Assembly: GCA_020061125.1 (NCBI GenBank)
Contig: JAGUYV010000415.1
Span: 1 to 8,920, forward strand
Source: a bacterium
GTDB lineage: Bacteria; UBP15; UBA6099; DSWB01
Direction of reading: 5' to 3'
Length of the DNA stretch: 8,920 nt
Shown: piece after piece, positions 236 to 7,344 of the stretch
How positions within the stretch are numbered: position 1 is the first letter of the stretch
Layout: every line of letters begins with the position of its first letter
Notes under the pieces: model-generated
Told to the model about the DNA's origin: nothing
Databases searched by the model: none
What the model saw: only the letters and a program-made list of their open reading frames with translations
Made by a program: the position numbers and the translations under genes

Positions 236-1758
236 CTTACGGACTCATCGCCGCCGTTTTCCTGGTTCTGCTTCTGCTGCGCACGCCTCTGTTCATCGCC
301 CTGGGCGCAGCGTCGGCCATGTGCTTTTCCCTCATCAAGCCGGAACCTTTCACCGGCCTCATGGCCCAGCAGATGTATTTCATCACCGAAAAAGGCGAAC
401 TGCTCGCCATCCCGTTTTTCGTGCTGGCCGCATCACTGATGACGCATGGCAAAAGCGCGAAGCGCGTCACGGAATTCGTTGGCGCGGCCGTGCGCTGGCT
501 CCCCGGCGGCCTGGCCCTGGCCACCATTGTTTCGTGCGTGCTGTTCGCCGCCATGTGCGGCCTCACGCCCACGGCCGTGGTGGCGGTGGGCGCGCTCATG
601 CTTCCCGGCCTGGTGGGCGCGGGATATCCCGAGCGCTTTTCCCTGGGCCTGGTCACATCGTCCGGCTCGCTGGGCATTCTGGTGCCGCCCAGCCTGGTGG
701 TGCTGGTGTTTGTGGTGGTGGCCACATCATCGGTGCAGGGTTACAACCAGGCTGCGCAGGAAGTGGCCGTAATGCGCATGCAGGAGCAGGCGGAGCGCGC
801 GGCTGAAACCGCCGCGGCGCGAGACGCGGAGCAGCAGGACCCGGCCGCGGAGTTCATGCCCGCCTGGGCCGCGGATGTGCATGAGGATCTGGAAACGCCA
901 GAAGCCGCGCAGACCTCGAAAGAGCAGCAGCCCGCCGCACCGCAACCGCCGCGACCGGAACCCAAAACCGATGTCAACCTCAAAAATGCCTTTGTGGCGG
1001 GCGTCATGCCCGTGCTGCTGATTGCCACCCTTTTTTCCGCATACGCGGTGATTACAGGACTGCGCAGCGGCGCGCGCCGCGAGCGGTTTTCGCTGCCGGA
1101 ACTGGCCCGGACCGCGCGCCGCGGCGTGCTCGCCCTGGTGCTTCCCGCTCTGGTCATCGCCGTGATCCTCACCGGACGAATGACCGTGATTCAGGCCGCG
1201 GCCCTGGCCGCCGTGTACGCTTTCATCCTCGAGGTTTTCCTGTACCGCGCCGTGCGGCTGCGCGATCTGCCCGCAGTGGTGCGCGAAGCGGGCGTCATGA
1301 CCGGCATGATTCTCATCATCCTCGCCGTGACCATGGCCTTTAATTATTACCTCGCCAACGAGTTGATCATCATTGATCTCACGGACTGGATCCAGTCGCA
1401 TTTTCATTCGCGTCTTGGGTTCCTCATCGCCGTGAACATTCTGCTTCTGTTCCTGGGCTGTCTCATGGACATCCTGTCGGCCGTGTTCGTCACCGTGCCC
1501 CTGCTGCTTCCGGCCGCGCTGCAGCTTGGCATAGACCCCATCCATTTCGGCGTGATCTTTCTCATCAATTTCGAAATCGGGTATCTGACCCCGCCCATCG
1601 GCGTGAATCTGTTCACCGCAGGCGCTGTTTTCAAGAAGGATCTGGTAGAGGTGTCGCGTTCGGTGCTGCCGTTCCTGGGCCTGTTGCTGGCGGCTCTGGC
1701 CCTGGTCACATATTTCCCCGGCATCAGCCTGTGGCTGGTGCGCGCATTGGGCGGCTGA
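232..1758 (+). CDS. dctM: TRAP transporter large membrane subunit, DctM type, with internal hydrophilic insert
   Basis: DctM-type subunits form the transport domain of TRAP systems in the inner membrane, moving the solute delivered by the periplasmic DctP protein with sodium. From the GTG start (strong SD, 4-bp overlap with DctQ) the protein has 508 residues; family members are usually near 425-450. Seen in order: N-terminal helix (residues 4-28), the helix after IPFFVLAASLM (60-70), WLPGGLALATIVSCVLFAA (89-107), a Thr/Ala-rich turn GLTPTAVVAVGALMLPGL, the family motif GSLGILVPPS (145-154), then after the insert AFVAGVMPVLLIATLF, further helices, and a strongly typical end: LGIDPIHFGVIFLINFEIGYLTPPIGVNLF (432-461) and TYFPGISLWL. 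About 80 residues rich in Ala, Glu, Gln and Pro (169-248) interrupt the place where the family normally reads straight from the VPPS helix into the LFLAGxxPG helix. Both ends of the insert are in frame and the rest of the protein is intact, so the gene looks functional. Substrate cannot be told from sequence. Confidence 0.93.
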   Translation: MTYGLIAAVFLVLLLLRTPLFIALGAASAMCFSLIKPEPFTGLMAQQMYFITEKGELLAIPFFVLAASLMTHGKSAKRVTEFVGAAVRWLPGGLALATIVSCVLFAAMCGLTPTAVVAVGALMLPGLVGAGYPERFSLGLVTSSGSLGILVPPSLVVLVFVVVATSSVQGYNQAAQEVAVMRMQEQAERAAETAAARDAEQQDPAAEFMPAWAADVHEDLETPEAAQTSKEQQPAAPQPPRPEPKTDVNLKNAFVAGVMPVLLIATLFSAYAVITGLRSGARRERFSLPELARTARRGVLALVLPALVIAVILTGRMTVIQAAALAAVYAFILEVFLYRAVRLRDLPAVVREAGVMTGMILIILAVTMAFNYYLANELIIIDLTDWIQSHFHSRLGFLIAVNILLLFLGCLMDILSAVFVTVPLLLPAALQLGIDPIHFGVIFLINFEIGYLTPPIGVNLFTAGAVFKKDLVEVSRSVLPFLGLLLAALALVTYFPGISLWLVRALGG

Positions 1759-1778
1759 TCCGCAACCCGCTTTTTTTT
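1749..1778 (+). terminator. Weak intrinsic terminator after the TRAP genes
   Basis: GCGG (1751-1754) pairs with CCGC (1760-1763) around a 5-nt loop that includes the DctM stop codon. GG 1749-1750 can extend the stem against CC 1766-1767 if AA bulges out. A run of eight T follows at 1771-1778. The stem is short and imperfect, so this is a plausible rather than firm terminator. Confidence 0.4.
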
Positions 1779-1792
1779 CAAAGAACCGGCTC

Positions 1793-1798
1793 TATACT
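1793..1798 (+). promoter_or_regulatory. Possible -10 box upstream of the GAF-HisKA-REC gene
   Basis: TATACT matches five of six positions of the sigma70 -10 consensus and lies in the AT-rich part of the gap between the DctM stop and the next start. No convincing -35 box lies at the usual distance; only the T run at 1771-1778 is there. If it is used, the leader would be about 40 nt. Confidence 0.35.
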
Positions 1799-1845
1799 AA
1801 ACCCATAATCAGCCGCGCCCTCGGACGCGGGCAAGTGGTCAGGCC

Positions 1846-2928
1846 ATGGATTCAAACGCACCAGACACCAATGCGCGCAGACTCGAAATGCTGTTGCGCG
1901 GCATCCCGGAACTTGCTGCATGCAAAACCGGACAGGATCTCCTCATCCAGACAGCGCGCACGGCGGCGCTTGCGCTCGAATGCACATGCGCGCTGTTTCT
2001 GCCCGGCGGCAGCCGGCGCATGCAACTTGCCGCGGAATGGGCGCGCGACGGCCAAAAGGTCCAGGCTGGCGCTGAATGGCCCGACATGGATGCGGGCCTC
2101 TGCGCAGAAGCATGGAGCGTGCGCTCCCCGGTATTTACCCAAAACCCCGAGCCGCTCGTCCTCGCACCCGTATTTTACGGCGATGCGCCCGCAGCCATAC
2201 TGCGCATGACAGGCGCGCTTTTGAACCGCGAATGCCTGCCTATGATTGATCACCTTGCCGGAATTGCGGGAGCCATGATGCCGCTCGTTTCAGATTCAGA
2301 ACGCGCAGCCCGCAAAGCTGATGGAGATTTTGTCCACGATCTCAACAATCTGCTTGCGATCATCATCGGCAACGCACAAATTGCGCTGTCAGGCCTTGGG
2401 GATCACGAGAACAGCGAAGAAGTACAGGAAATACTGGAGGCGGCCCGCCGCGCGCGCGACTTGAGCGACATGCTGCGAACCGCCCGGGGCAGCGCACCGG
2501 AACACGCGCGGCAAGAACCGCCCCATCCATCCGGCCCGGCCGCGGCATCGGACTGCGGCGGAACCGTACTCATCGTGGACGACGAACCCGCCCTGTTGCG
2601 CATGGCGGAAAAAATGCTCACACGCGAGGGATACTCTGTTGTCTGCGCGCCGGACGGAGCGCGCGCGCTCGAGATTTTCCGCGAGCGGCAGGCGCAAATT
2701 CACGCCGTGGTTCTGGACATGATCATGCCGGGCATGGATGGAGCCGAGGTTTTCAACGCACTCAAAGCCGAGAATCCTGGCGTGCGCGTGATTCTAGCAT
2801 CGGGCTTCAGCCTCGAGGGGCGCGTGTCCGAGCTCCTGGCCAGCGGCGCGCGCGGCTTCGTTCAAAAACCCTTCAGCGCCGCCGAACTGTGCCGGATTCT
2901 GGACGAAACCCTGAATTCCCGGACTTAA
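1846..2928 (+). CDS. GAF-like / HisKA / receiver protein lacking the kinase ATPase domain
   Basis: This 360-residue protein is probably a cytosolic two-component signalling protein; no signal peptide or membrane helix is seen. Residues about 20-147 look like a GAF-type sensor fold (low certainty). Residues 161-210 match the dimerisation helices of hybrid histidine kinases: DFVHDLNNLLAIIIGNAQIA with the phospho-accepting His at 164, followed by EVQEILEAARRARDLSDML. A Pro/Ala-rich linker (211-236) then leads straight into a complete receiver domain (239-356): acidic pocket D245/D246, phospho-acceptor D291 in VVLDMIMPGMDG, S319 in ILASG, and K341 in QKPF. The HATPase_c catalytic domain (N, G1 and G2 boxes, roughly 110 residues) that normally sits between HisKA and REC is missing, with no frameshift to explain it. 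It therefore cannot autophosphorylate alone; it may receive phosphate from a partner kinase or act as a scaffold. The ATG is preceded by only a weak AGG. It stands alone between TRAP and TPR genes, so partner and output are unknown. Confidence 0.8.
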   Translation: MDSNAPDTNARRLEMLLRGIPELAACKTGQDLLIQTARTAALALECTCALFLPGGSRRMQLAAEWARDGQKVQAGAEWPDMDAGLCAEAWSVRSPVFTQNPEPLVLAPVFYGDAPAAILRMTGALLNRECLPMIDHLAGIAGAMMPLVSDSERAARKADGDFVHDLNNLLAIIIGNAQIALSGLGDHENSEEVQEILEAARRARDLSDMLRTARGSAPEHARQEPPHPSGPAAASDCGGTVLIVDDEPALLRMAEKMLTREGYSVVCAPDGARALEIFRERQAQIHAVVLDMIMPGMDGAEVFNALKAENPGVRVILASGFSLEGRVSELLASGARGFVQKPFSAAELCRILDETLNSRT

Positions 2929-2945
2929 ATCTTTTCTTCAGACTT

Positions 2946-2973
2946 TTGATCAATTCTTGAAATGTAATATAAT
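2946..2973 (+). promoter_or_regulatory. Sigma70-like promoter of the TPR gene
   Basis: TTGATC (2946-2951, four of six matches) and a perfect TATAAT (2968-2973) are separated by 16 bp in an AT-rich island within a GC-rich region. Transcription would start near 2980, giving a leader of about 30 nt. The -35 box lies in the 8-bp palindrome TTGATCAA (2946-2953), which might be an operator but is short enough to be chance. Confidence 0.6.
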
Positions 2974-2995
2974 TAGGGGCTGATTACGGATCTGC

Positions 2996-3002
2996 AAAGG
3001 AG
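2996..3002 (+). promoter_or_regulatory. Shine-Dalgarno site of the TPR gene
   Basis: AAAGGAG lies 6 nt before GTG 3009. This fixes a GTG start that puts a clean signal peptide at the N-terminus. Confidence 0.8.
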
Positions 3003-3008
3003 CCAGCC

Positions 3009-4076
3009 GTGAGAGTTCGCATTCTACCGGTGCTGTTCGCAATATGCTTTCTGGCGCTGCCGGCCCTGGCGGGCGTGGAAGACGCCGTGATTCTGAACAA
3101 CGACGGGGTGGACCTGTACACGCGCGGCTTTTACACCGCGGCCATTGACAGGTTTCAGGCCGCCCTCACCTACGACGCAAACAACCCGCAGATTTACACC
3201 AACATGGGCTATGCGTACATGGCGTCCAACATGCCCGAGTACGCCGTGGAATCCTTCCGCAAGGCGCTTGCCATTGACCCCACGAATCTCGATGTGCACA
3301 ACAACCTCGCCATCAGCCTCTACACCCTGGGCAAGCGGGATCAGGCCATTGAGGAATGGGAGTTCGTGCTGCGCACCGATCCCAATTTCGAAGCCGCGAA
3401 ACGCAACCTGGAACTGGCTTATGCGGGCAAGCGCCTGGCCCCGGCCGGAGAAGAAATTTATTACACCGGCTCCCACGGCGAGCCTTTTGTGAACTACGAC
3501 GAGCTGGCCGATATGTTCGACCGCGGCAAGCTGGCCTACAAACGCGGCAACTTCGGCGAAGCCATCGAATTGTTAAGCAATGTGCTCGAAGTCAAACCCA
3601 CAAGCAAATTCAGCCACTTCTATCTGGGCCTGGCGTACGCGCGCATGGGCAAGAGCGACCAGGCCATGACGCATCTGCGCGAGTACCTGGTGCGGGAGAC
3701 CACCCCGCCGGAAAGCTCCTCCGCTTACGACCACGCGGAAAAGGTTTTCCAGAACCTGCGCAAGGGCTATACCTATGTGGACATGCTGGAGTTCGACGAC
3801 ACGGCCGCCAGTTATTATGACCAGGGCAAGAACGCATACGAGAAAGGAGACTATTTCAGGGCCATCCATTTCCTGCGCCGCGCCGTGGATCTTGCGCCCG
3901 GCTCGTTTTCGTCCAACTACCTGCTGGGCCTGGGATACCGCCATGTGGGGGACCGCGAGCGCGCCGTGTACCACTTGAGCCGCGCCCTGTATTCCGTGGA
4001 AGCGGAAAAATACAGCGACAATACCCTAAAGAAAGTCGAAGACCTGCTCAACTCATTGAGCCAGGGCGGCGACTAA
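3009..4076 (+). CDS. Secreted tetratricopeptide repeat protein
   Basis: The product has 355 residues and a GTG start. Residues 1-21 form a signal peptide (MRVR, a hydrophobic core, then ALA before Gly22), so the protein is probably periplasmic or surface exposed. The mature part is mostly TPR helix pairs with 34-residue spacing in three blocks: about 26-59, 60-93 and 94-127; 166-199 and 200-233; 266-299 and 300-333. Typical TPR signatures are visible, for example YTNMGYAYMASNMPEYAVES, FRKALAIDPTN, GKLAYKRGNFGEAIELL and GKNAYEKGDYFRAIHFLRRA. Two linkers without repeats (about 135-165 and 234-265) are rich in Tyr and acidic residues. TPRs mediate protein-protein binding; no enzymatic domain is seen. 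It has its own promoter and converges on the minus-strand foldase/peptidase operon. A role in envelope assembly or a secretion complex is possible, but the sequence gives no specific partner. Confidence 0.85.
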   Translation: MRVRILPVLFAICFLALPALAGVEDAVILNNDGVDLYTRGFYTAAIDRFQAALTYDANNPQIYTNMGYAYMASNMPEYAVESFRKALAIDPTNLDVHNNLAISLYTLGKRDQAIEEWEFVLRTDPNFEAAKRNLELAYAGKRLAPAGEEIYYTGSHGEPFVNYDELADMFDRGKLAYKRGNFGEAIELLSNVLEVKPTSKFSHFYLGLAYARMGKSDQAMTHLREYLVRETTPPESSSAYDHAEKVFQNLRKGYTYVDMLEFDDTAASYYDQGKNAYEKGDYFRAIHFLRRAVDLAPGSFSSNYLLGLGYRHVGDRERAVYHLSRALYSVEAEKYSDNTLKKVEDLLNSLSQGGD

Positions 4077-4187: not shown

Positions 4188-5507
4188 TTATTCCGCAACC
4201 AGCGGAATGGCGATGTGGTCGAGGACTGTCGCGCCGCCCTTGCCGTGCGGCTCTTTGGCAAGGACGACATGAAGGATTTGGTCAGGCGGATTCGAGGGCA
4301 AGAGCGCTTTGCAGGATTTGTCAGGAGCGATGAGGGACAGGTTAAATTCCACAATGCGCTTGTCCGCGCTGGACGGAGCGCCGCCCCGCAGTCTGGCGGC
4401 CGCGAACCGGATTTGCGGCACGCCCGCACCCGGACCCGTTGCGGGCCGCACTATCAGCGAACCCAAGTCCGCGCCCTCGCCGGAAACCCACGCGCACGAT
4501 TCCCGGCCGCTGCGCCCGGCCAGTCCCGCGCCGATCAGCAACTCGTCCTCATCCCCGGCCTGGAACGCCAGAAGCCGCAATCGCAGACCGGCTCGCAGGA
4601 TGTCTGTTCCCTCCTGCCGCGGCGCGCTTTTCCCGGCAGGACGCAATGCGATCCCGTAACGCCGGAATGCGTTCAGTTCCTTTTCGCTGGCGGGCAGCCA
4701 CAGCGCCCACTCCCCGCCCGGCGCCGGGCCTTGCAGGAAACAGTTGCGCCTGCAGGAGCCGGGGCCTCCATCCCCAGCCCAGTAAAGCTCGGGCAGAATC
4801 TGAATGGTGGGTTTGGGCGAACGGCGGTGCGCCGCGGGTGCGCTTTTCCAGTCCTTGCGCATGACCGCAAACAACTGAACCGGGGCCGCGGCCGTGATTT
4901 TCAGCCTATCCAGAAACGCGCGCCAGGGCAGCCGGGCGTTAATGAGGCACTCGGGTCCGCGCCCGCATCCCGGGTTGAACGCGCCGGACGGATCGTGATA
5001 CCACACACCTTTTTCATCGTATCCCGTAACCACGATCCAGTGCAGGCGCGCCACGCTCATGAGCATGACCGGCCAGCCGCCGGAGATATACCGCTTGATC
5101 CGAGAGACGAGTTGTGATTCCTGCCGTGTTAGAAAAAAAGCGTGAGAATGCGCGGCAAGCCCTGCCGCGGTGTAGCGCGCGCGCACGAATTGCGCATGGT
5201 GCTGCGCTGCCGTTGCGCCGGACCGGTGGCAGGTGAGCAAATCCAGCGCCCCGCGGCACGGTTCGCTCACCTTGCCTTCGCCCGCGGCGATCTCCCAGAG
5301 TTCCGCATCCGCGCCCGCATACTTCAACGCCATGGCCAGAGATGCGGGGCCGCACCAGTTCCGCGCGCCCTGCATGTAATACGGAACTTGCAGGCGTTCG
5401 CTCCGCGGCAATTCCGAGCACGCCGCGTCCACGCACACACCCAGCGCCAGGCAGACTATGAAAAGGGGAAATACAGACCGGAAAATTGCGCGCCGGATAT
5501 TAAGCAT
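4188..5507 (-). CDS. Exported papain-like cysteine peptidase, C39-type
   Basis: The product has 439 residues. An N-terminal signal peptide (basic MLNIRRAIFR, hydrophobic core, likely cut after VDA at residue 28) points to the periplasm or beyond. Residues about 38-216 carry the papain-like pattern of C39-family (Peptidase_C39_2-like) domains: VPYYMQGARNWCGPASLAMA with oxyanion Gln46 and nucleophile Cys52, then LHWIVVTGYD with His156, and WYHDPSGAF with Asp172. Such domains cleave peptides, often near Gly-Gly motifs when fused to ABC exporters; here there is no transporter, so the substrate is open. Residues 220-439 are of unknown type, beta-rich in feel, with no motif I recognise. Cysteines occur as close pairs (84/93, 181/187, 252/256), consistent with disulfides. 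No good SD is seen before the ATG, which begins only 16 nt after the foldase stop, so translation is probably coupled. A catalytically active enzyme is likely since all four key residues are present. Confidence 0.75.
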   Translation of the reverse strand: MLNIRRAIFRSVFPLFIVCLALGVCVDAACSELPRSERLQVPYYMQGARNWCGPASLAMALKYAGADAELWEIAAGEGKVSEPCRGALDLLTCHRSGATAAQHHAQFVRARYTAAGLAAHSHAFFLTRQESQLVSRIKRYISGGWPVMLMSVARLHWIVVTGYDEKGVWYHDPSGAFNPGCGRGPECLINARLPWRAFLDRLKITAAAPVQLFAVMRKDWKSAPAAHRRSPKPTIQILPELYWAGDGGPGSCRRNCFLQGPAPGGEWALWLPASEKELNAFRRYGIALRPAGKSAPRQEGTDILRAGLRLRLLAFQAGDEDELLIGAGLAGRSGRESCAWVSGEGADLGSLIVRPATGPGAGVPQIRFAAARLRGGAPSSADKRIVEFNLSLIAPDKSCKALLPSNPPDQILHVVLAKEPHGKGGATVLDHIAIPLVAE

Positions 5508-5523: not shown

Positions 5524-7344
5524 TTACTGTTGCGGGGACATGGGCGGCAGATTCTTCTTGAGCGCTTCGGCCCACCGGGCGCCGACTTCGGGCACGGCGG
5601 CCTGATTGATCTGCACGGTCATTTCCGTGCGGTATTTGCTGATGATGTCCAGGAACTGCGCGCGGCGTCTGTCTGTAAGCAGGCGAGAGCGGATCTGCTC
5701 CTTGAGTTCATCGGTGAAAGGCATGTAATCGTCTTTGGGATCGGACGCGGCCGTGACCAGAAAAATGTGCCACCCGAACTGGGTCTGCACAGGTTCCGAC
5801 ATCTTGCCCACGGGCGTGCCGAACACGGCTTTCTCGGCCTCGGGCACGAACTGGCCCTTGCTCACGCGGCCCAAAACCCCGCCCTTGTCCTTGCTGCCGG
5901 GATCGAGCGAGTGCTTTCCGGCCAGTTCCGCGAACTTGTCCGGACTTTTCTTGAGTTCCGCGTAAATCTTGTCTATCTCTTCCCTGGAGGCCACAAGGAT
6001 GTGGCTTGATTCCCGCCATCCGGTGTACAGGGCCGTTTCCTTGTTGGTGTCGTACCATGATTTGATCTCGTCATCGGAAACAGCGAGCTTGTCGAGTTCG
6101 GGGTTCACAAATTTTTCGAAGTACAGGGTTGCGAGCAGGCTGTCTTTTTTCACCCTGATGATTCTCTGGAAGTCCGGATCTTGATCGAGTTTCTGTTCGC
6201 GGGTCAGATGGGCCAGGGCCGCAACCTCGATCCAGCGCGACAAAAAGGTGCGCTGCCAGTCGGGCTGGGCCATGAGCTGGGACTTGAATCCGTCGCCCAT
6301 CTCCTGTGTCCAGGCCAGATCAAGTTCGCGCAGGGTAATTTTGACGCCAGGTTTGCCCAGTGTTGCGGCCACGGTGGCGGGGTCCGGCTTTTTCGCGTCC
6401 GCCGGGGTTTCATCGGGAACCCCGGACTGCCGTTTCATTTCCCGGAGCCATTCCGCGGCAATCATGGGCACGGCATCGTCATTAATCTTGACATCGAGTT
6501 TATCGAGTTGAGCCGTGATGGCGGCCAGAGCCGCGGCCTGCTGCTTTTCAGCGCTCACCAGCGGGCGGATCTCGTTCTTGAGCGCTTCGTCCAGGGGTTT
6601 GTAATCCTCATCGGGTTTGGACGCCGCGGACGCAAGAACCAGATGCCAGCCGAACCGGCTCTGCGCGGGCGCGCTGACTTTGCCGGCCACGGCTTGAAGA
6701 TAGACGGGCAGGATTTCCGGGGGGAACCGGTCATCCCCGGCCGTTATGCGCCCCAGCGCGCCGCCTTTGTCTTTGGTGTCTTCATCCAGGGAATGCTGTT
6801 TGGCCGCGGCCGCGAATCCGTCCGGCTTTTTCGAAAGCTCCGCGTACAGCTTGTCGGCCAGGGCTTTGTCCGCCACGATAATGTGCGAAACCTCGCGCCA
6901 CCCGCTGAAATAGCGGGCCTGTTTGTTCTTTTCATAAAAACTTTTGATCTCGTCTTCGGAAACCTGAATTTTCGCCAGTTCGGGAGCGATAATCTTTTCG
7001 AAATACAGGCCTGCATTGAGGCTGGCCTCGCGGATGCTCCATGTGAGTTTGAAGTCTTCGGATTCCTGAATTTTGTTGAGACGGCCTTTCTCCGCAAGAA
7101 CCGCCACCTGCACCCAGTTTTCCACAAAGCGCATCTGCCAGTCCGGCTGCGAAACATACTGGTATTTGGTCTGATCGGGAATTTCCGAACGCCAGGCGGA
7201 ATCCAGATCATCCACGGTGTAGGCCGCGCTTTTGCCGGCTGTGAAAACCTGGGTCGAGCCTTCGGCCATCACAGGCCCAGACAGCGCAGCGCAGATCATC
7301 GCCGCAATGAGAAATGCAAGCAGTGATATGTGTTTGTTCGCCAA
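5524..7344 (-). CDS. Periplasmic foldase with two PpiC (parvulin) modules, PrsA/SurA-like
   Basis: The product has 606 residues. A signal peptide ends near VMA (residue 27), so it acts in the periplasm. Parvulin-type enzymes catalyse cis-trans isomerisation of prolyl bonds and, in PrsA and SurA, also chaperone exported proteins. Two parvulin domains are visible, about 148-240 and 445-535, each with the first-strand His (SHIIV H154; SHILV H448), a KDKGGxLGR turn (191-199; 485-493) and the closing FGWH (231-234; 523-526). Each domain is framed by an N-terminal helical part containing QPDWQ, a YFEK helix, VSxDEIKS, and a C-terminal helical tail, so the whole ~290-residue module is duplicated. 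A Pro/Lys/Asp-rich linker (about 306-324) joins the halves. The start is TTG 7344, with AAAGGAG 11 nt upstream; the next Met would destroy the signal peptide. It is first in an operon with the exported cysteine peptidase, a candidate client. Confidence 0.9.
   Translation of the reverse strand: MANKHISLLAFLIAAMICAALSGPVMAEGSTQVFTAGKSAAYTVDDLDSAWRSEIPDQTKYQYVSQPDWQMRFVENWVQVAVLAEKGRLNKIQESEDFKLTWSIREASLNAGLYFEKIIAPELAKIQVSEDEIKSFYEKNKQARYFSGWREVSHIIVADKALADKLYAELSKKPDGFAAAAKQHSLDEDTKDKGGALGRITAGDDRFPPEILPVYLQAVAGKVSAPAQSRFGWHLVLASAASKPDEDYKPLDEALKNEIRPLVSAEKQQAAALAAITAQLDKLDVKINDDAVPMIAAEWLREMKRQSGVPDETPADAKKPDPATVAATLGKPGVKITLRELDLAWTQEMGDGFKSQLMAQPDWQRTFLSRWIEVAALAHLTREQKLDQDPDFQRIIRVKKDSLLATLYFEKFVNPELDKLAVSDDEIKSWYDTNKETALYTGWRESSHILVASREEIDKIYAELKKSPDKFAELAGKHSLDPGSKDKGGVLGRVSKGQFVPEAEKAVFGTPVGKMSEPVQTQFGWHIFLVTAASDPKDDYMPFTDELKEQIRSRLLTDRRRAQFLDIISKYRTEMTVQINQAAVPEVGARWAEALKKNLPPMSPQQ

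Follow-up and report, generated by a model that had tools for sequence, protein, structure and literature searches.

A gene in the window (here, the whole stretch of 8,920 nucleotides analysed, which is an entire contig) codes for a 360-residue protein with the build of a hybrid histidine kinase, from which one complete ATPase domain is absent. The chain carries a sensor, a HisKA (DHp) domain with the conserved His and a receiver, but no HATPase, and thus belongs to the class of HisKA-without-HATPase proteins; with no HATPase_c domain bearing N and G boxes, the feature by which histidine kinases are defined, it is not a histidine kinase, and lacking an ATPase domain it is unable to autophosphorylate. 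We tentatively regard it as a kinase-dead offshoot of the HDxNN hybrid kinases, which are plentiful in the source genome, that may act as a sensor-gated phosphate sink or phosphatase. In one way or another, the protein probably drains, or passes on, phosphate from other kinases.

Results

Gene context and domain organization

The reading frame runs from an ATG to a TAA (Table 1) and lies between a gene for a TRAP large permease (DctM), upstream, and one for a TPR protein, downstream. No kinase or regulator gene adjoins it, making it an orphan within the 8.9-kb contig. A σ70-like site with 10 of 12 matches to consensus (chance expectation, 0.4) precedes the downstream gene and suggests that the latter may have a promoter of its own. 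Other genes of the window have features of their own. DctM (4-1758, +) shows two Pfam stretches split by an 80-residue Gln/Ala/Pro-rich insert, roughly residues 243-326, an apparent oddity in the TRAP large permease family. The opposite strand encodes a protein of periplasmic type whose single chain holds a tandem pair of PPIC rotamase (parvulin) modules (5524-7344, -), as well as an exported C39-like cysteine peptidase, the long C-terminal region of which matches no recognised family (4188-5507, -).

Table 1. Coordinates of the gene, its domains and the downstream promoter-like site (positions in the window).
Feature	Position	Strand	Evidence
Whole gene, 360 aa, ATPase-less hybrid histidine-kinase-like protein	1846..2928	+	ORF, Pfam, spacing, profile search
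N-terminal sensor region, residues 1-149, possibly GAF-like (by reading and sub-threshold Pfam GAF_2)	1846..2292	+	
HisKA/DHp helical hairpin, residues 150-213	2293..2484	+	Pfam, AF2, paralogue identity
H-box HDLNN: H164 (phospho-acceptor), D165 (kinase-type acid), N168 (phosphatase-type Asn)	2335..2349	+	Sequence; roles per PMC3510030
Pro/Ala-rich linker, residues 214-239, where paralogues have HATPase_c	2485..2562	+	Spacing, low AF2 pLDDT, profile search
Receiver domain, residues 240-357, with D245, D246, D291, S319 and K341	2563..2916	+	Pfam, alignments, AF2, Foldseek
D291, receiver phospho-acceptor	2716..2718	+	Sequence alignment
σ70-like promoter, TTGATC-16-TATAAT, between the ATPase-less gene and the TPR gene (putative)	2946..2973	+	

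The initial annotation had placed in this frame a GAF-like region, a HisKA domain with His164, a Pro-rich linker and a receiver with Asp291; the frame and the positions of both phospho-acceptors were correct, and the last three of the four elements were confirmed. For the receiver, the Pfam Response_reg match (residues 241-352) is significant (E = 1e-24) and the catalytic set is complete, with the acid pair D245/D246, D291, S319 and K341; in an alignment of 31 sequences D245, D246, D291 and K341 are invariant and S319 nearly so. The AF2 model of this domain has pLDDT values mostly of 84-97, and the top matches of the whole model in Foldseek were receivers only, Spo0F and RR468 among them. The Pfam HisKA match (residues 163-211; E = 3.8e-5, 24.1 bits) falls slightly below the curated cut-off of 26.9 bits; the assignment is independently confirmed by 56% identity to the Pfam-recognised HisKA of C96, a paralogue from the same genome, and by the helical hairpin in the full-length AF2 model (helices 150-184 and 190-213, pLDDT about 78), which was built on a 29-row alignment. 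The Asn of the phosphatase motif, at +4 from the H-box His, is present (N168). The surroundings of the H-box read GDFVHDLNN, as compared with the GG[IMV]AHDFNN common to nearly all of the kinases compared, and the second DHp helix also differs at its LLTFA end; given these changes, the DHp might be structurally altered. Between the DHp and the receiver lies a linker of 26 residues (GSAPEHARQEPPHPSGPAAASDCGG), rich in Pro and Ala, which is disordered, with low pLDDT, in the AF2 model.

The sensor is the soft point of the original description. Pfam GAF_2 matches this region with an E-value of 0.039 (0.04-0.06 over runs), far under the curated cut-off, and residues 1-149 have pLDDT values mostly below 50 both in the full-length model and when the N-terminus is folded alone; the GAF-like character is only suggested by Pfam, and the two AF2 runs are of low confidence. 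Lastly, Pfam detected no output domain in the protein, in agreement with what had been proposed.

A complete ATPase domain is missing

A search for leftover HATPase sequence, recommended in the initial annotation, was conducted in two ways. In Pfam, no HATPase family was listed for the 360-residue protein at E ≤ 1; HATPase_c was recognised with an E-value of 5e-20 or better in the three paralogues of the same genome that were run through Pfam. A profile built from the ATPase segments of own-genome paralogues was searched against the six frames of positions 1401-3300, and the best match had an E-value of only 0.8; as a positive control, the profile detected a held-out kinase of the same genome at 1.8e-47. 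On the six-frame search of this interval, a residual or frame-shifted ATPase domain was rejected.

The distance from the H-box His to the acid pair of the receiver is 81 residues, versus 241-248 in the HDFNN/HEFNN hybrid kinases of the same genome for which both ends could be measured. In the own-genome hybrid kinases the N box is found at +107-109 from the H-box His and the G box usually at about +151-155. About 162 residues are missing, equal to one whole ATPase domain, and a diverged ATPase domain, the alternative raised in the initial annotation, has no room, because just 26 residues separate the DHp from the receiver. The spacing, the profile search with its control, and a phylogenetic tree (with a weak fork; see below) support the proposal that the ATPase domain was cleanly removed from a hybrid kinase. 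Two short frames of the same genome (C456 and C125) also appeared to be ATPase-less at first sight, but were rejected, as their N and G boxes are found just downstream.

Relatives and age of the loss

The closest HisKA is that of C96, a PAS-HisKA-HATPase-REC kinase with which the protein shares the sequence AIIIGNAQI; near the H-box, 16 of 24 DHp residues are identical to C96, and 8-14 of 24 to the other own-genome paralogues. The closest receivers, at 50% identity, are likewise from the same genome. More generally, the own-genome HDxNN hybrid kinases (C96, C283 and C31) show the same domain order, with HisKA and receiver domains up to 56% and 50% identical, respectively, but have an HATPase_c between the two (sensor-HisKA-HATPase_c-REC), which the protein studied here does not. 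In a maximum-likelihood tree of the joined DHp and receiver (117 rows), the protein's neighbours are kinases from its own genome and order, at a weakly supported fork (68/98). Its branch is long (0.66 changes per site), and the loss of the ATPase domain is therefore not obviously recent, a recent deletion being the second alternative raised in the initial annotation. No orthologue of the sensor region was found in the other six genomes of the phylum, or in 53 further genomes (relatives or random), and a scan of genome contigs returned mostly receiver matches; the source is a single metagenome-assembled genome, 79% complete.

The same truncation in other bacteria

Further cases were sought with a profile or protein query that ran from the HisKA into the beginning of the receiver; per genome, only a limited number of candidates was scored. 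Two further bacterial groups with the same truncation were found. In one, from a different phylum and represented by a pair of congeneric species, 266-residue proteins are organized as coil-DHp-REC, with no HATPase and a spacing of 83 residues (L124:1234-2034, -; L125:1231-2031, -). In the other, a genome of the phylum of Desulfofustis, a multi-PAS protein (L128:1273-3384, -; in a frame of 1274 residues) ends in an HDLNN-type DHp, a Pro/Ala-rich linker and a receiver, again with no HATPase and with a spacing of 86 residues. In the tree, L124 and L125 are embedded in a clade of complete kinases, and the grouping of L128 is likewise with complete kinases (95/99); because each case nests among full-length kinases, the losses look independent. 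L124 and L125 are separated by a synonymous distance of 0.43 and a non-synonymous one of 0.067, for a Ka/Ks of about 0.16, which is lowest in the DHp (about 0.10), and so their form is under purifying selection. Together, the sequences indicate that the ATPase domain may well have been lost repeatedly, leaving a spacing that is almost the same in each case, and in one lineage under selection.

In both the window protein and L128, HDFNN has become HDLNN, the GG ahead of it is gone, and the second DHp helix no longer ends in LLTFA; L124 and L125 retain GGIAHDFNN. Possibly, the changed residues are needed for docking of the ATPase domain only.

A tblastn search of plasmids identified an additional HisKA-REC-Guanylate_cyc protein with no HATPase in Sinorhizobium terangae (L121:2261-3823, +), the gene for which adjoins those for a hybrid kinase and a single-receiver protein. 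A Deinococcus plasmid match from tblastn was discarded, as it spans two separate genes. No more cases were found among the limited candidates scored per genome, in 48 genomes and another phylum.

Discussion

Proteins with a HisKA but no HATPase have been described in archaea as 'nonenzymatic HK-like proteins', alongside REC-PAS/GAF-HisKA regulators such as AF_1472, which also lack HATPase, and an RHH-HisKA-REC architecture is known from Lokiarchaeum (Galperin et al., 2018; PMC5847659). Like the window protein, they have a sensor and a HisKA with the conserved His, some with a receiver, and no HATPase; the tabulated archaeal type, however, has its receiver at the N-terminus, REC-(PAS)n-HisKA, whereas the protein described here is bacterial, has a C-terminal receiver and is clearly related to the HDxNN hybrid kinases. 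The P2CS database lists HisKA-without-HATPase proteins as probable incomplete kinases (PMC2716373), and the authors of the archaeal survey note that none of the regulators in the class with receivers has been investigated (PMC5847659). The window protein thus adds a bacterial example to a kind already catalogued but uncharacterised. The S. terangae protein also combines HisKA(s) and a receiver with no HATPase, but differs in its HDLRTP-type H-box, its adenylate/guanylate cyclase output and its adjacent hybrid kinase and single-receiver genes.

We infer that an HDxNN hybrid kinase lost its whole ATP-binding domain, leaving a sensor, a DHp dimer, a flexible linker and a receiver. D291 would then take phosphoryl groups in trans from the DHp of at least one full hybrid kinase of the cell, and the protein's own DHp, through N168 assisted by H164, would strip the phosphate in cis or off partner receivers, a removal that the N-terminal sensor may gate. 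The first candidate partner would be C96, the DHp of which is the closest, with an identical AIIIGNAQI. The +4 Asn/Thr is required for phosphatase activity and the +1 acid for kinase but not for phosphatase activity (PMC3510030), and in EnvZ and NtrB the isolated DHp is reported to act as a phosphatase without the rest of the kinase (Zhu, 2000; Kramer and Weiss, 1999; both cited in PMC3510030). A phosphatase or sink is favoured here because N168 is kept and because the DHp alone is enough in EnvZ and NtrB; as in the window protein, the EnvZ and NtrB constructs have the HxxxN/T motif and no ATPase, but they are laboratory truncations with no attached receiver. The combination of a retained H164 and a full receiver active site with the lack of an ATPase, an output domain and a neighbouring kinase or regulator gene further supports this reading, as does the maintenance of L124/L125 under purifying selection, and phosphatase activity has been proposed for HisKA-without-HATPase proteins (PMC5847659). 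Weighing against this reading, the retained D165, of the type required for kinase and not phosphatase activity, would also fit a donor or an acceptor role, and the changed residues near the H-box and at the end of the second helix might mean an altered DHp. A counter-case is ChrS of Corynebacterium glutamicum, which without a working ATPase domain gave no sign of phosphatase activity and the conserved His of which was uninvolved (PMC9491836). This pseudokinase, ChrS_CA-fs, is also a kinase with a destroyed ATPase domain that still alters signalling; unlike the window protein, it arose by a frameshift during laboratory evolution, has no receiver and has apparently lost phosphatase activity (PMC9491836).

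HisKA-like folds act as phosphotransferases in Spo0B and ChpT, and the DHp could likewise serve as a histidine phosphotransfer domain in a phosphorelay shuttle, one of the three roles, with phosphatase and decoy, that the initial annotation had put forward; D291 would be loaded by another kinase, and H164 would take the phosphate from D291 and pass it to a downstream response regulator. Both phospho-acceptors and all of the receiver residues are intact, and the flexible linker of the model would permit His-Asp contact, yet no response-regulator gene lies nearby, the protein retains N168, the phosphatase Asn, and the archaeal survey offers no studied regulator of the receiver-bearing class (PMC5847659); we consider such a relay rather unlikely. 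Alternatively, the DHp could pair with a full-length paralogue, C96 being the best candidate given the 16 of 24 identical residues near the H-box (8-14 in other paralogues), and either be phosphorylated in trans at H164 or lower the activity of its partner. In C. glutamicum, the truncated ChrS influences the paralogous pathway that depends on HrrS, and native ChrS does form heterodimers with HrrS, but no clear heterodimer signal was obtained from truncated ChrS itself (PMC9491836); moreover, the DHp helix-end residues differ from those of C96 and homodimers are the usual form, and a role as heterodimer partner or decoy therefore seems doubtful.

A functionless hybrid kinase, decaying or truncated in the assembly, would be compatible with a source that is a single metagenome-assembled genome, 79% complete, and with the lack of an orthologue in the six related genomes. 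This is very improbable, however, in view of an unbroken frame through a Pro/Ala-rich linker of ordinary type, a normal codon-position GC pattern in every domain, the full set of receiver active-site residues and the fact that two unrelated lineages have the truncation too, at almost the same spacing, with conservation across two species in one of them.

To return to the sink or phosphatase, a bolder and, in our view, unlikely generalization is that repeated loss of the ATPase from HDxNN hybrid kinases has yielded an ATP-independent 'self-resetting receiver', which other kinases would load and a sensor-controlled DHp of the same chain would discharge in cis, with a DHp-receiver spacing constrained to 81-86 residues. 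Annotation tends to label HisKA-without-ATPase proteins as kinases, which such proteins cannot be. Being small and soluble, and having a likely partner, the window protein is a candidate in which one can test directly whether proteins of this kind serve as phosphatases, relays or dimerization partners.
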